NCBI RefSeq assembly: GCF_018224015.1
Contig: NZ_JAGPOT010000011.1
Location: forward strand, 62,001-126,000
Direction: 5' to 3'
DNA: 64,000 nt
From: Pseudarthrobacter albicanus
GTDB lineage: Bacteria > Actinomycetota > Actinomycetes > Actinomycetales > Micrococcaceae
A program made the translations under genes and the position numbers. The notes under the pieces are model-generated. The model saw nothing but the letters and a program-made list of their open reading frames with translations. It was not told where the DNA came from and searched no databases. Shown here piece by piece: positions 2,043 through 37,209 of this stretch; within the stretch, counting starts at the first letter, position 1; every line of letters starts with the position of its first letter.

Positions 2043-2981
2043 TTACTTGGCTTCGCCACTGGCGTCGTCAGCAACTTCGGTTGCCTCGGCAGCTGCCGGG
2101 GCTTCCTCTGCAGCAGCAGCGGGTGCTTCCTCGGCGGGAGCTTCGGGAGCAGCAGTGGCGTCAGCCGCAGCGGGTGCCTCTTCAGCGGCGGCGGGAGCAA
2201 CAGCCGCTTCGGTCTTGCCGCCTTCGAGGAGCTCGCGCTCCCACTCGGCCATCGGCTCTTCCGGAACTTCCGTGGTCCCGGTGGCGCGGTTGTGGCGGGC
2301 GATGAGGCCCTCGGCAACGGCGTCGGCAACAACGCGGGTCAGCAGGTTGACGGAGCGGATGGCGTCGTCGTTTCCCGGGATCGGGAAGTCGACTTCGTCC
2401 GGATCGCAGTTGGTGTCGAGGATGGCAACAACCGGGATGTTCAGCTTCTTGGCTTCGTCGACAGCAAGGTGTTCCTTCTTGGTGTCAACGATCCACAGGG
2501 CGGAGGGCGCCTTCGTGAGGTTGCGGATACCACCGAGGTTGGTGGCCAGCTTGGTGAGTTCGCGGCGAAGGAGCAGCAGTTCCTTCTTGGTGTAAGCGGA
2601 GCCGGCGACGTCGTCGAAGTCGATCTCTTCGAGTTCCTTCATGCGCTGGATCCGCTTGGAGACCGTCTGGAAGTTGGTCAGCATGCCGCCGAGCCAACGC
2701 TGGTTGACGTACGGCTGGCCAACACGGGTGGCCTGCTCGGCGATTGATTCCTGGGCCTGCTTCTTGGTGCCGACGAAGAGCACGGTGCCGCCGTGTGCAA
2801 CGGTGGCCTTCACGAACTCGTAGGCGCGGTCGATGTAGGACAGCGACTGCTGCAGGTCAATGATGTAGATACCGTTGCGCTCCGTGAAGATGAATCGCTT
2901 CATCTTCGGGTTCCAACGGCGGGTCTGGTGTCCAAAGTGGACGCCGCTGTCAAGCAGCTGGCGCATAGTTACGACGGGCAT
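2043..2981 (-). CDS. rpsB: 30S ribosomal protein S2
   Basis: Small-subunit ribosomal protein needed for S1 binding and initiation. The N-terminus has the diagnostic [19 protein letters not shown] (5-23), and the S2 core runs to about residue 245. The protein is 312 aa against about 240-260 usual. The extra C-terminus (about 255-312) is almost entirely Ala, Glu and Pro, an acidic low-complexity tail common in Micrococcaceae S2 proteins. GGAAGGAG lies 7 nt before the ATG. It is the first gene of rpsB-tsf-pyrH and is divergent from an M23-type envelope gene, an order also conserved in mycobacteria. Confidence 0.98.
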
Positions 2982-11775: not shown

Positions 11776-11848
11776 CTCCTCCTGCTGGACTTGAACCAGC
11801 AACCCTTCGATTAACAGTCGAATGCTCTGCCAATTGAGCTAAGGAGGA
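11776..11848 (-). tRNA. tRNA-Asn (GUU), copy 1
   Basis: A 73-nt cloverleaf with acceptor TCCTCCT/AGGAGGA, D-arm GCTC/GAGC, anticodon stem TTCGA/TCGAA with loop CTGTTAA (anticodon GTT), T-arm TGCTGG/CCAGCA and discriminator G. CCA is not encoded. It is identical to the copy at 11998-12070. Confidence 0.97.
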
Positions 11849-11997: not shown

Positions 11998-12070
11998 CTC
12001 CTCCTGCTGGACTTGAACCAGCAACCCTTCGATTAACAGTCGAATGCTCTGCCAATTGAGCTAAGGAGGA
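11998..12070 (-). tRNA. tRNA-Asn (GUU), copy 2
   Basis: The sequence is identical over all 73 nt to the tRNA-Asn at 11776-11848, including the next bases ATGAAGC on the 5' side. Both share GTTTGCTA about 20 nt upstream of the mature 5' end, part of a duplicated promoter. The 222-nt offset points to a local tandem duplication with diverged spacers. Confidence 0.97.
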
Positions 12071-28212: not shown

Positions 28213-28225
28213 GTGAGGACCTAAC

Positions 28226-28342
28226 TTCGCGCTTGCCCGCCGGCAGCTGACCGGCAGGCCAGGTCTTCACCCGGGGCACCCCGCCGCAAAAGGAGGGTTG
28301 CCGGCCAGCAAGCCGGGGCTGTCGCTGGCACTCATGACCTTC
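28226..28342 (-). promoter_or_regulatory. SAM-IV riboswitch upstream of metX
   Basis: On the minus strand the conserved segments appear in order: AGGTCATGAGTGCCAGCG, AGCCCCGGCTTGCTGGCC, GGCAACCCTCC, GGGGTGCCCCGGGTGAAGACCT, then a hairpin and GGCAAGCGCG. AGGTC and GACCT close the aptamer. This is the SAM-IV class known in actinobacteria. The short distance to the metX ribosome site suggests translational control. Confidence 0.93.
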
Positions 28343-29789: not shown

Positions 29790-29853
29790 CGGAACAGCTC
29801 CTCAGGGGACCGGGCACAGGCCGCCCTGGGCTCATCGCCGGGACGGCAGAGGC

Positions 29854-29968
29854 GCCGCGCTTGCCCTCCGGCGGGCGCCGGACGGCCAGGTCTTCACCCG
29901 GGGCACCCCACCGCGATACGAGGGTTGCCGGCCAGCAAGCCGGGGCTGTGCGCTGGCACTCATGACCT
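29854..29968 (-). promoter_or_regulatory. SAM-IV riboswitch upstream of metY
   Basis: Nearly the same aptamer as before metX: AGGTCATGAGTGCCAGCG, GCCCCGGCTTGCTGGCC, GGCAACCCTC, GGGGTGCCCCGGGTGAAGACCT, a variable hairpin and GGCAAGCGCG. Variable stems carry compensating changes. About 65 nt separate it from the metY start, enough for an extra expression-platform hairpin. Confidence 0.93.
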
Positions 29969-33981: not shown

Positions 33982-34296
33982 CTAATGAATGGCCTTGAGC
34001 CCCACGACGCCGCCGACGATCATTGCCAGAAACAGGACCTTCAGCGCCGAGACGGGCTCCGCACCGGTAACCATCGCATACACGACGGTGAGCACAGCGC
34101 CGATTCCCACCCATACGGCGTACGACGTCCCCAGGGGAAGCTCCCGCATGGCATACGCCAACCCCAGCATGCTTGCCGTCAGGGCCACGATGAACACCGC
34201 AGAGGGAACAGGCCGGCTGAATCCCTCGGATTTACCCAGGGCCGTAGCCCACACCGCTTCGAGAACGCCGGAAAACACCAAAACAACCCATGACAT
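33982..34296 (-). CDS. SMR-family guanidinium/H+ exporter (Gdx/SugE subtype)
   Basis: Four-helix dual-topology exporter of 104 aa. Residues that define the guanidinium-exporter subtype in Gdx-Clo are all at the same numbers here: E13, W16, S42, Y59 and W62. SugE-type signatures ELPLGTSYAVWVGIGAV and IVGGVVGLK are present, unlike drug-exporting EmrE types. AGGAG lies just before the ATG and immediately after a guanidine-III riboswitch, so expression should rise when guanidine is present. Only one SMR gene is present, consistent with a homodimer. Confidence 0.94.
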   Translation of the reverse strand: MSWVVLVFSGVLEAVWATALGKSEGFSRPVPSAVFIVALTASMLGLAYAMRELPLGTSYAVWVGIGAVLTVVYAMVTGAEPVSALKVLFLAMIVGGVVGLKAIH

Positions 34297-34307
34297 TACG
34301 TCTCCTA

Positions 34308-34350
34308 CGGGCCGTCTTGTCGCACACCGGGTACGGCACCCATCGTCCGG
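34308..34350 (-). promoter_or_regulatory. Guanidine-III riboswitch
   Basis: On the minus strand CCGGACGA, GCCGTACCCGGT and GACAAGACGGC appear in order, matching the Thermobifida fusca guanidine-III (ykkC-III) aptamer as I remember it. GCCGT and ACGGC can form the pseudoknot. The aptamer ends 1-2 nt before the AGGAG of the SMR gene, the usual layout for translational control. Confidence 0.92.
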
Positions 34351-34414
34351 GAAACCCTGTCCGGGTCCCCCTCCAAGTTCGCACGTCTGCCTGCGGCCTG
34401 GCAACTTCGCGTCG

Positions 34415-34450
34415 CGGCCCGGTGCCCTTCGCGTGAAGGGTGCCGGGCCG
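34415..34450 (-). terminator. Hairpin downstream of the beta-helix-like gene
   Basis: A 16-bp stem (34415-34430 with 34435-34450; two G-T pairs, 4-nt loop) lies 20 nt past the stop codon and upstream of the guanidine riboswitch. No T-run is present. It probably insulates the SMR unit from upstream transcription. Confidence 0.65.
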
Positions 34451-34470: not shown

Positions 34471-35676
34471 CTATCCGGCGGCCAGGGGTTGGCCGTTGGG
34501 GGCCTCCAGTGTCAGGCCGTCCAGGCTGGGCCCCGCCACGCCGGCGATCCGCACGGCCGTGGCGCCGGCGCCGTTGGCGATGATCTTCCCGCCCACGGCC
34601 AGTGATCCGACGGGCCCTTCCAGGTCCACGGTGGCCAGGCTGTCGCCGTCGGTGGAGATGTCCGCCCCGATGTCCACGGAGCCGATCCGCCCGGTGGGCT
34701 TCACGCTCAGGGCGATGGCCGCCAGAGGCATCAGGACGCCCTTGACCAGGCTTTCGCCGGTGCCGCCGGAGGTGGACAGGCTGCCCTTGATGGTCAGCCT
34801 GGGCAGCTCGCGGCTGACCTGCACCCCCACGGACCCGTCGCCGCGGGTGGTGATCGAGTCGAACACGGCCTCGCTCAGGGAGCCGTCGTAGACGTTGAAG
34901 CCGCGGGCGCCCAGGCCGGTGGTTTCGATGGGCGCCTCAACCGTGAGCACGCCGATGTCGCCGAAGTTGACGAAGCCGATGCCGCTGGGGCCGTGCGAGG
35001 TGACCTTGGCCTTGGCCGTCCAGTTCTCCACCGCACCCCAGTTATCCAGCACCATGTCGTTCTGGCCGTACGTGGTGGTGGTGCCGAGATTCAGCACGTC
35101 CGCGGCATGGGCGCCGCTGATGATGAAGACACCGCCGCTGATCAGGTCCGGGGTGCCCGGGGCGATGCCGCCGTCGGAGTAGACGTCCCCGGTGGAGAGC
35201 AGCTCCAGCGTGACGGCGCCGCCGTCGGCCGTGCCCGCCCTGTCCCCGTGCCCGCCGACGAACACGCCGCCGCCGCGCACCGGGGCCCCCGCGCTGCCCG
35301 CGGAGATGTTCTCCAGCCGTGCGGTGAGCACGACGGCGGCGTCCGGCTGCCGGTTCCAGAGGGTGAAGGCGCCCTGCAGCGCCTCGACGCCGAACCCGGT
35401 GGGCCGGTCCGCCCGGCCGCGCGTGTCCGCCTCGGCCACGTGCACGCCGTCGGCCTCGATCCGGCCGGCACGGACGCTGCCCTCCGCGCTGAGGTAGACC
35501 TGCCCGTGGCTGGTGACGTTCGCCAGCCGCAGCGTGCCCAGGTCCTCCACGGTGTGGTCGTTGTAGATGGCGAGCTCGTGCGCCGAGGTGCGCACCGTGA
35601 TGTTCCCGACCGTGTTGTCGCTGGTCAGCCGCAGGCCCTTGGCCCCGAAGACCAGCTCCCCGCCGCGCAGGGCCAC
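34471..35676 (-). CDS. Beta-helix-like repeat protein (5' end frameshifted)
   Basis: A 401-residue open frame of short beta-strand repeats (patterns such as GSLAVGGKIIANGAG, LTIKGSLSTSGG, GVLTVEAPIETTGLGARG), rich in Gly, Thr, Val and Asp, with few Cys and no membrane segment. It resembles right-handed parallel beta-helix or adhesin-like proteins. No catalytic residues are recognisable. The frame opens at GTG (V-A-L-R-G-G-E-L). The preceding codons in another frame read on smoothly into it (see the fragment at 35677-35795), so this is probably the larger part of a gene broken by a one-base loss or a sequencing error. Confidence 0.7.
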   Translation of the reverse strand: MALRGGELVFGAKGLRLTSDNTVGNITVRTSAHELAIYNDHTVEDLGTLRLANVTSHGQVYLSAEGSVRAGRIEADGVHVAEADTRGRADRPTGFGVEALQGAFTLWNRQPDAAVVLTARLENISAGSAGAPVRGGGVFVGGHGDRAGTADGGAVTLELLSTGDVYSDGGIAPGTPDLISGGVFIISGAHAADVLNLGTTTTYGQNDMVLDNWGAVENWTAKAKVTSHGPSGIGFVNFGDIGVLTVEAPIETTGLGARGFNVYDGSLSEAVFDSITTRGDGSVGVQVSRELPRLTIKGSLSTSGGTGESLVKGVLMPLAAIALSVKPTGRIGSVDIGADISTDGDSLATVDLEGPVGSLAVGGKIIANGAGATAVRIAGVAGPSLDGLTLEAPNGQPLAAG

Positions 35677-35795: not shown

Positions 35796-36048
35796 AACAC
35801 CACCACCGTTCTGCGGATCGGAACCTCAAGGCGGCAGCCTTCATTGGCGCCGCCCCTCGCATGATACTCCGGCGGCTTGGAGGCAAGGGTGTACCCGGAA
35901 CGACGAATTCTGTGGTTCGATCTTGGAAGGCCGCAAGGGGTGGGCCTGCAGTAGCATGACCGGCAGAGTGTGACACCAGCGCTACGGACGGGACGGCCCG
36001 TTCGTTTCGATCGATGTGGGGACGGCCCCGTGAAATGGGGTTCAACCC

Positions 36049-37209
36049 GTGTTTTCCTCTACTGCGCGATCCATTGTCACGCCCATCGCCATTGTGCGCC
36101 TCGTGGTCGGCTGGGGCGCCGTCCTCGGATTGGTGTTTGCCCACCCCCTCCTTGCGCCACCCGTCCCCGCCTGGCTGCTGGTCACCGGCCTGGTGTTCAT
36201 CGTCGGCGTCGTTCTGGTCTGCGCCTTCGGGGTGGTCCATGAGGCCGAACATCTCGCCCACCGGCTTGGTGATCCCTACGGCTCCCTGGTCCTCACCCTC
36301 TCGATCGTGCTGATCGAGGTGGTGCTCATTTCCGCCGTCATGCTGGGGCCCGGGGAGCACACCACCATCGCCCGGGACTCGGTGATGGCCGTATCGATGA
36401 TTATTCTCAATGCGGTGATCGGGCTCTGTCTTCTCGTCGGGGCGATCAAGCACGGCAATCTGGGCCACAACCGCACCGGCACCTCCGCCTATCTGGCCCT
36501 GCTCGTCGTTCTCGCCTCGCTGGCCTTTGCCCTGCCGGCCCTGATCGGGCGTGACGGCTCCTACAGGCCGGGGCAGGCGATCCCCATCATCGTGCTGACC
36601 CTCGCCCTGTATGCCTTCTTCCTCTACCGGCAGATGGGCAGGCAAGCCGACGACTTCCGGGAAGTCGATCCACGCTTCGCCGCCGGTCCGGGCGCACGTG
36701 GCAGCGTCGCCTCCGAGCAGGGCCGCCGCAGCATCACCCAGGTCATCGCCGAGCATCGTTCCGAGGTATTGCTGCGGATTGCGTTGCTGATCGTGACGGT
36801 CTTGCCCATCGTGCTGCTCTCGCACGACATGGCCACGCTCCTGGACGACGGGCTCGGGCGCGTCGGTGCGCCGGTGGCGCTTTCCGGCATTCTGATCGCC
36901 ATGATTGTTTTCCTGCCCGAGTCGATCACGTCAGTCCGCGCAGCGCTGCAGGGCGAGATCCAGCGTGTCAGCAATCTATGCCATGGCGCCCTGGTCTCCA
37001 CGGTTGGCCTGACCATTCCCGCCGTCCTCATCACCGGCAGCCTTACCGGTCAGGCCGTCGTGCTAGCGGAGTCCCCGGCCGACCTGCTACTCCTCGGCGT
37101 CACGTTGATGCTTTCGGTGACAACGCTTGCTTCCAAGAAGGTGACAGCGATGCACGGCGCCGCCCATCTCGTGGTCTTCGCGGTCTACGGCATCGCCGTA
37201 TTCTCCTGA
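36049..37209 (+). CDS. ChaA-like Ca2+(Na+)/H+ antiporter
   Basis: A 386-aa member of the CaCA superfamily with about 11 helices in two halves. Alpha-repeat 1 is VVHEAEHLAHRLGDPYGSLVLTL with IVLIEVVLISAVM; alpha-repeat 2 is GILIAMIVFLPESITSVRAALQ. A charged cytoplasmic loop (about 200-235) separates them. E. coli ChaA exports Ca2+, Na+ or K+ at alkaline pH. Start GTG at 36049. It appears monocistronic; the 250 nt upstream hold no recognised riboswitch. Confidence 0.9.
   Translation: MFSSTARSIVTPIAIVRLVVGWGAVLGLVFAHPLLAPPVPAWLLVTGLVFIVGVVLVCAFGVVHEAEHLAHRLGDPYGSLVLTLSIVLIEVVLISAVMLGPGEHTTIARDSVMAVSMIILNAVIGLCLLVGAIKHGNLGHNRTGTSAYLALLVVLASLAFALPALIGRDGSYRPGQAIPIIVLTLALYAFFLYRQMGRQADDFREVDPRFAAGPGARGSVASEQGRRSITQVIAEHRSEVLLRIALLIVTVLPIVLLSHDMATLLDDGLGRVGAPVALSGILIAMIVFLPESITSVRAALQGEIQRVSNLCHGALVSTVGLTIPAVLITGSLTGQAVVLAESPADLLLLGVTLMLSVTTLASKKVTAMHGAAHLVVFAVYGIAVFS

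Follow-up and report, generated by a model that had tools for sequence, protein, structure and literature searches.

Two divergent guanidine riboswitch units in Pseudarthrobacter albicanus point to a ChaA-like antiporter subfamily as a likely second type of guanidinium exporter

The stretch of Pseudarthrobacter albicanus DNA analysed here (64,000 nucleotides; the window) carries two divergently oriented guanidine units that lie 1.6 kb apart. On the minus strand, a Guanidine-III (ykkC-III) riboswitch aptamer (34306-34372) forms the leader of a gene for a Gdx-type SMR transporter of 104 aa (P0001, 33982-34296), together referred to as unit 1. On the plus strand, a Guanidine-II (mini-ykkC) aptamer (35985-36029) precedes the gene for a ChaA-like cation/proton antiporter of the CaCA fold (386 aa, GTG start, 36049-37209), together referred to as unit 2. 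An earlier note on this region had described unit 1 correctly and had overlooked the second riboswitch and its antiporter. Between the two units, the minus strand encodes a hypothetical protein of 401 aa (34471-35676, start unsure), which matched no Pfam or NCBIfam model and which we do not count as belonging to the guanidine system. A G+C-rich inverted repeat seen by eye between this gene and the SMR leader (34415-34450, minus strand) has no T run and was not reported by the terminator scan; it is perhaps a candidate terminator of the upstream gene.

Elsewhere in the window, two SAM-IV riboswitches on the minus strand (28224-28339, 112 bits, and 29852-29967, 106.8 bits), 1.5 kb apart, head adjacent genes for an alpha/beta hydrolase, which we read as MetX-like, and a Cys/Met-metabolism PLP enzyme, an arrangement that is ordinary for Actinomycetota. 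Two minus-strand tRNA genes (11776-11848 and 11998-12070) are separated by 149 bases, share their scores and sequences, and by their anticodon loop are probably both tRNA-Asn genes.

The Rfam model RF01763 scored 63.9 bits (gathering score 36) at positions 34372-34306 of the minus strand, covering all 67 model positions (1-67) with E-values of 7.2e-11 in the 64-kb window and 4.5e-12 in 4 kb, and this was the sole match at E <= 0.001 across the whole genome. A score this far above the cutoff rules out a chance match, and the covariance-model search that the earlier note had named as a check was thereby passed by a wide margin. Both parts of what that note claimed, a Guanidine-III riboswitch and a Gdx-type SMR exporter behind it, were borne out, and the three sequence blocks that it quoted for the leader are all present. 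Its 43-nt leader (34308-34350) does belong to the Guanidine-III aptamer and comprises only the 3' two thirds of it, the 5' hairpin extending to 34372. The aptamer was also correctly said to end at the ribosome site: its last base, 34306, doubles as the opening base of AGGAG, the Shine-Dalgarno sequence of the SMR gene (34302-34306, minus strand), five bases before the ATG at 34296.

Guanidine-III was found in 84 of 149 genomes of the same family, at 87 places (genome counts here and below refer to drawn samples, some of them incomplete). Because an SMR gene lies directly downstream at all 30 of those 87 places that were fetched, the pairing is conserved in the family. The literature describes Guanidine-III in Actinobacteria in front of SMR genes of the emrE/sugE type (PMC2864571 and PMC12186494, excerpts), so that motif, position, gene class and phylum all match, and nothing of note distinguishes unit 1 from the described units. 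The pairing of Guanidine-III with Gdx is already known, and unit 1 is a conserved and ordinary example of it.

The SMR protein matched Pfam PF00893 with 78.4 bits (cutoff 23.7). Its nearest solved chain is 6wk5 (E 1.5e-23), while the first chain named EmrE followed at 8.8e-8. The 6wk5 entry, which bears the name 'Multidrug resistance protein, SMR family', is Gdx-Clo (PMC9574504, excerpt), for which E13, W16, S42 and W62 are given as site residues in the same source. The two proteins aligned without gaps over residues 1-102, and counting residues recovered all five positions named in the earlier note (E13, W16, S42, Y59 and W62). The SMR protein therefore resembles Gdx-Clo in length, gap-free alignment and these five residues, and is predicted to transport the same substrate. 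A multidrug-style label had likewise been anticipated for the gene, and its best NCBIfam model is indeed the SugE 'quaternary ammonium compound efflux' model, which it matched below the cutoff (98.4 versus 126 bits). Judged by this score, the protein is not a SugE equivalog in NCBI's sense; in our reading, the SugE model does not span the full breadth of Gdx.

All seven other sampled genomes of the window's genus have two SMR genes each, which in the compared congeners form a tandem pair beside Guanidine-III (for example, G009 and G039). The window's genome holds a further SMR pair on another contig (G000:C37:1393-2039; loci L258 and L263), with no Guanidine-III match there, and the single SMR gene of the window has its best match, at 82%, in another genus (G131). 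From these sequence relationships, unit 1 (33982-34372) may have been acquired horizontally.

In unit 2, RF01068 matched positions 35985-36029 of the plus strand with 35.1 bits (gathering score 32) over model positions 1-48, leaving 19 bases between the match and the GTG that starts the antiporter gene. It was the sole Guanidine-II copy found in the genome, and the Guanidine-I motif was not found in the genome. The aptamer consists of two hairpins, P1 and P2, both capped by ACGG loops. Among 61 aligned leaders, ACG is invariant in both loops, although this set was picked by the Rfam cutoff, which favours invariance. Pairing in the stems was compared between these 61 leaders and shuffled counterparts, uncorrected for relatedness. 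The fifth P1 pair from the loop was formed in 85% of 53 distinct P1 sequences by six pair types, compared to 39% after shuffling; P1 pair 4 was formed in 100% versus 80%, and P2 pair 3 in 100% of 39 sequences versus 85%. The outer P1 pairs 9-10 and the P2 pairs 6-8 were little better than shuffled. The leader thus shares with Guanidine-II two ACGR-loop hairpins, with stems supported by covariation, directly before a ribosome-binding site. Guanidine-II has been described as mostly proteobacterial and as preceding genes for efflux or for guanidine, urea or agmatine utilisation (PMC12186494 and PMC3766115, excerpts), whereas the copy in the window heads a ChaA-like gene in the Actinomycetota.

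The protein encoded by this gene matched PF01699 (Na_Ca_ex) with 72.9 bits (cutoff 24.9) and the ChaA model NF007895 with 147.6 bits, and it also stayed under the caca2 cutoff. Since NF007895 matches the antiporter yet remains below its cutoff of 505, we refer to it as ChaA-like and not as ChaA; the same model matched all 26 scanned subfamily members (best E 1e-53). Sequence search of solved structures returned none that matches the antiporter. An AlphaFold2 model of middling confidence (mean pLDDT 73.7) matched the Ca2+/H+ exchangers VCX1, CAX1, YfkE and CAX with Z scores of 26-29, followed by Na+/Ca2+ exchangers (Z 18-24) and by unrelated proteins from 8.6. Inorganic cations are the known substrates of the CaCA family, and one relative of the antiporter is annotated 'calcium:proton antiporter'. 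The antiporter shares with ChaA and CaCA proteins (CAX, YfkE, VCX1) the fold, the PF01699 domain and the site residues E90, E291, R109, D110, N141 and N309 of generic ChaA. It differs from them in forming a separate clade, in scoring below the family cutoffs, in residues found only in its subfamily (including T83, S85, S317, T318, C311 and H312) and in the guanidine riboswitch in front of its gene.

The association of Guanidine-II with this gene recurs across genomes. In the family, Guanidine-II was matched in 26 of 149 genomes (26 places), and a ChaA homologue with 58-100% identity lies directly downstream at 25 of these places. Among named genomes, 216 relatives of the antiporter were found, the best 80 of which were retained, all with actinobacterial names; 60 of these best 80 (11 + 19 + 16 + 14) have Guanidine-II just upstream by the Rfam cutoff, which is the strict count of the motif. 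A survey of 394 genomes of the class found a CaCA relative in 89 of them, seven at 62-100% identity and the other 82 at most 47%. The motif precedes all seven of the former and none of the 23 fetched of the latter kind. In the same survey, Guanidine-II was matched at E <= 0.001 in 25 genomes at 26 places, 20 of which are not before the ChaA-like gene. According to the lists of open reading frames, many of these 20 lie inside long reading frames or are plain G+C-rich hairpins, and no downstream gene recurs; they look like chance and were rejected as evidence, and single weak Guanidine-II matches are therefore not to be trusted alone.

A tree of 137 distinct proteins, built by a quick method after merging identical protein rows, placed 110 of them in one branch (SH-aLRT 100). 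The motif precedes 99 of these 110 by a lenient pattern (loop GGAC[GA]), which also passes a few leaders with altered loops such as L114 and L122, and none of 25 generic ChaA genes. Among the 11 clade members that lack it, L109, L110, L111, L232 and L233 form a paralogue clade with 53-56% identity to the antiporter of the window. One hairpin is damaged in L083 and L115, L117 and L119 have none, L154 is cut by a contig end, and L230 lacks the motif and carries an insertion in its protein. The motif-less members may be paralogues with another substrate. The paralogue clade belongs to genus g21, where two genomes (G049 and G125) also hold a motif-bearing copy and so offer a natural comparison of substrate specificity.

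In three Arthrobacter relatives (L083, L113 and L115), one Guanidine-II hairpin has lost its ACGR loop, the gene itself being intact, at 88% identity; these leaders are apparent cases of riboswitch decay. L083 belongs to G086, a congener of the window that also has Guanidine-III and SMR genes, and the loss of its hairpin loop next to an intact antiporter gene thus fits redundancy between the two exporters.

Outside the Actinomycetota, a protein encoded on the Aminobacter niigataensis plasmid paAMD1 (45-48% identity) adjoins the clade in the tree. By pattern and by eye, both paAMD1 and pUSP1 of Aminobacter sp. MSH1 (L192 and L235) carry a two-hairpin leader before a ChaA-like gene, which in pUSP1 is unannotated and was matched in two pieces. 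Because these plasmid leaders have the two-hairpin form seen in the clade, the association seems to cross phyla. No motif was found before a relative with 43% identity on a Methylobacterium plasmid (L193).

Two Microbacterium loci differ from all others searched: in M. oxydans BEL163 and M. maritypicum MF109, an extra Guanidine-II (L146:2518-2561 and L175:2520-2563) heads a gene for a protein of 94 residues, after which another Guanidine-II precedes the ChaA-like gene. The 94-residue protein is apparently membrane-spanning, has no Pfam match and is 77% identical between the two loci; it is possibly another small guanidine-related membrane protein. In L146, a Guanidine-III match of 42.7 bits (2372-2436, minus strand) lies back to back with the extra Guanidine-II, and the next gene on its strand, about 170 bases on, encodes cytochrome b, an unusual neighbour.

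The distribution of the two exporters across genomes is, in our assessment, the strongest functional clue to the role of the antiporter. Counting as Gdx-like any SMR protein with E <= 1e-15 to that of the window, we found one in 97 of the 149 family genomes, namely in 7 of the 25 genomes with a Guanidine-II/ChaA unit compared to 90 of the 124 others (Fisher p ~5e-5, uncorrected for relatedness). The SMR proteins of the remaining 18 unit-bearing genomes are at best 35% identical. Likewise uncorrected, a Gdx-like SMR occurs in 8 of 32 genomes with any member of the ChaA subfamily versus 89 of 117 without, and Guanidine-III in 5 of 25 unit-bearing genomes versus 79 of 124 others. Before counting co-occurrence, we set aside G116, whose motif lies inside a coding region (L010); G009 (34% identity) was likewise left out of the ChaA-subfamily counts. 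These counts on 149 genomes replaced a control of seven congeners without ChaA, all of which have Gdx, since that control was biased by having been picked as Guanidine-III positive. In the other genomes of the class that carry the unit, a Gdx-like SMR was found in none of six (best identity 34%), and none of the six is among the 175 with Guanidine-III.

Absence of Gdx alone does not call for a stand-in, because both exporters occur together in 7 of the 25 unit-bearing family genomes, that of the window included, and both are absent from 34 of the 124 others. As the tables moreover ignore relatedness, exchanges within a genus are the better argument. Indeed, each of the six genera g5, g6, g20, g22, g23 and g24 contains at least one genome with the unit and no Gdx-like SMR and at least one congener with the SMR and no antiporter; g22 has three further genomes with both (G050, G094 and G111), and one genome of g6 (G036) has neither. 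In the window's own genome, which is assembled in 241 contigs and 94.8% complete, the exporters would be partly redundant, as both units and the further SMR pair are present.

We next consider how the two leaders might act. According to a review (PMC12186494, excerpt), Guanidine-II switches translation by favouring its initiation, and Guanidine-III affects both translation and the stability of the RNA. In unit 1, binding of guanidinium would free the ribosome-binding site and turn on export via proton antiport, expected of a Gdx at two H+ per guanidinium. In unit 2, Guanidine-II would act at the ribosome-binding site of the CaCA-fold antiporter, with P1 and P2 expected to kiss when guanidinium binds, and without ligand the 3' arm of P2 would mask the Shine-Dalgarno sequence. 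In the predicted folds, a Shine-Dalgarno-like AUGGGG precedes the ChaA-like gene (36035-36040, plus strand). The ligand-free minimum-energy fold retains P1 but engages the 3' arm of P2 with the Shine-Dalgarno region (mean pairing probability 0.94), an interaction that is mutually exclusive with P2. Forcing P1 and P2 to form raised the accessibility of the site only from 0.05 to 0.19; the gain is small because a small downstream hairpin remains. The fold of this leader is not unusually stable (z -0.85).

Folding was scored for 58 of the 61 leaders, L139, L165 and L168 being left out for repeated sequence or want of a suitable start codon. The pairing between the P2 arm and the Shine-Dalgarno region exceeded 0.3 in 12 of these 58 distinct leaders, and forcing P1 and P2 increased accessibility of the site in 34 of them with a median gain of 0.01. 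A general P2/Shine-Dalgarno switch, although predicted in the window, thus fails across the relatives, and since the pairing is not general, the mechanism proposed for unit 2 is a prediction for the leader of the window alone. A promoter scan found nothing, and a terminator scan nothing above chance.

Taken together, we consider it likely that the locus holds two separate guanidine-response units, one in which Guanidine-III controls a Gdx-type SMR exporter and one in which Guanidine-II controls a ChaA-like protein that would be a second, unrelated guanidinium/H+ exporter and a stand-in for Gdx in many Actinomycetota. We infer that both RNAs bind the ligand and act as ON switches and that each of the two proteins transports guanidinium. 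Beyond the locus, the broader reading, which we hold a little less firmly, is that the ChaA-like CaCA subfamily is probably a guanidinium/H+ exporter unrelated to Gdx that is controlled by Guanidine-II across the Actinomycetota, reaches into the Alphaproteobacteria and has repeatedly replaced the SMR exporter. Given the complementarity with Gdx-like SMR proteins, exchange of guanidinium for protons is the simplest account of the antiporter.

The strongest competitor of this account is an ordinary role in Ca2+, Na+ or K+/H+ exchange, with guanidine inducing the antiporter through ion or pH stress and the SMR protein as the sole guanidinium exporter. The CaCA fold and the ChaA-like sequence would fit such a role, and the acidic and polar site residues held in common with generic ChaA leave room for an inorganic substrate; moreover, Cs+/H+ antiport by Gdx has been reported, so that transport of guanidinium and of alkali cations can overlap (PMC13064478, excerpt). 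An ordinary antiporter, however, leaves unexplained why a Gdx-like SMR is missing from 18 of 25 family genomes and from all six other class genomes that carry the unit, and it would leave the guanidine sensor in those genomes without a known exporter. Nor does the riboswitch stand before generic ChaA genes (none of the 25 in the tree), and we regard this explanation as unlikely.

More doubtful still is that the Guanidine-II-like leaders of the clade bind a substituted guanidine such as methylguanidine or guanylurea, which the antiporter would then export. For Guanidine-IV, a variant has been reported with evidence that its ligand has changed (PMC9788692, excerpt), and the Aminobacter carrier strain MD1 grows on metformin and makes and releases guanylurea (PMC9699525, excerpt). 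On the other hand, the ACG trimers are important for the binding pocket (PMC7736828, excerpt), and it is these that do not vary in the 61 leaders, allowing for the selection by the Rfam cutoff that favours such constancy.

That the SMR protein of unit 1 is instead a drug or quaternary-ammonium exporter of the Qac type, and not a Gdx, appears highly improbable: it matches many Qac models weakly, yet all far under their cutoffs, 6wk5 is preferred over EmrE as its relative by a margin of about 50 bits, and its gene is placed behind a guanidine riboswitch. A chance pair of G+C-rich hairpins at the Guanidine-II position, for which the narrow excess over the Rfam cutoff and the many chance-like single matches in high-G+C genomes might speak, was rejected and has next to no likelihood, given that most members of the clade have the motif at this place ahead of the antiporter gene and that P1 shows compensatory changes, as in pair 5.

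A guanidinium exporter in the ChaA-like subfamily would not be the first proposed outside the SMR family. PnuC and MATE proteins have been put forward as guanidine exporters on the basis of their association with Guanidine-IV alone (PMC7736828, excerpt), a precedent that differs from unit 2 in both the riboswitch class and the transporter families. Nothing in the literature searched connected ChaA or CaCA proteins with guanidine, a search that excluded the 2017 validation papers on Guanidine-II and -III, the 2018 paper on Gdx and the gene associations in Additional file 8 of PMC2864571, where an earlier mention may exist. We take the gene at the mini-ykkC match of Corynebacterium glutamicum to be a chaA homologue. 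Support for this assumption was not found in the literature searched, where the match is listed with no gene given (PMC3890552, excerpt).

If guanidinium/H+ exchange by the ChaA-like subfamily holds true, a conserved transporter group, one relative of which bears a calcium:proton antiporter annotation, would move into guanidine biology. Guanidinium export would then have arisen in a second, unrelated antiporter fold, adding a CaCA transporter for an organic cation, and selectivity for a planar organic cation could be compared between the two folds. It would also explain how many Actinomycetota that possess a guanidine sensor cope without Gdx.
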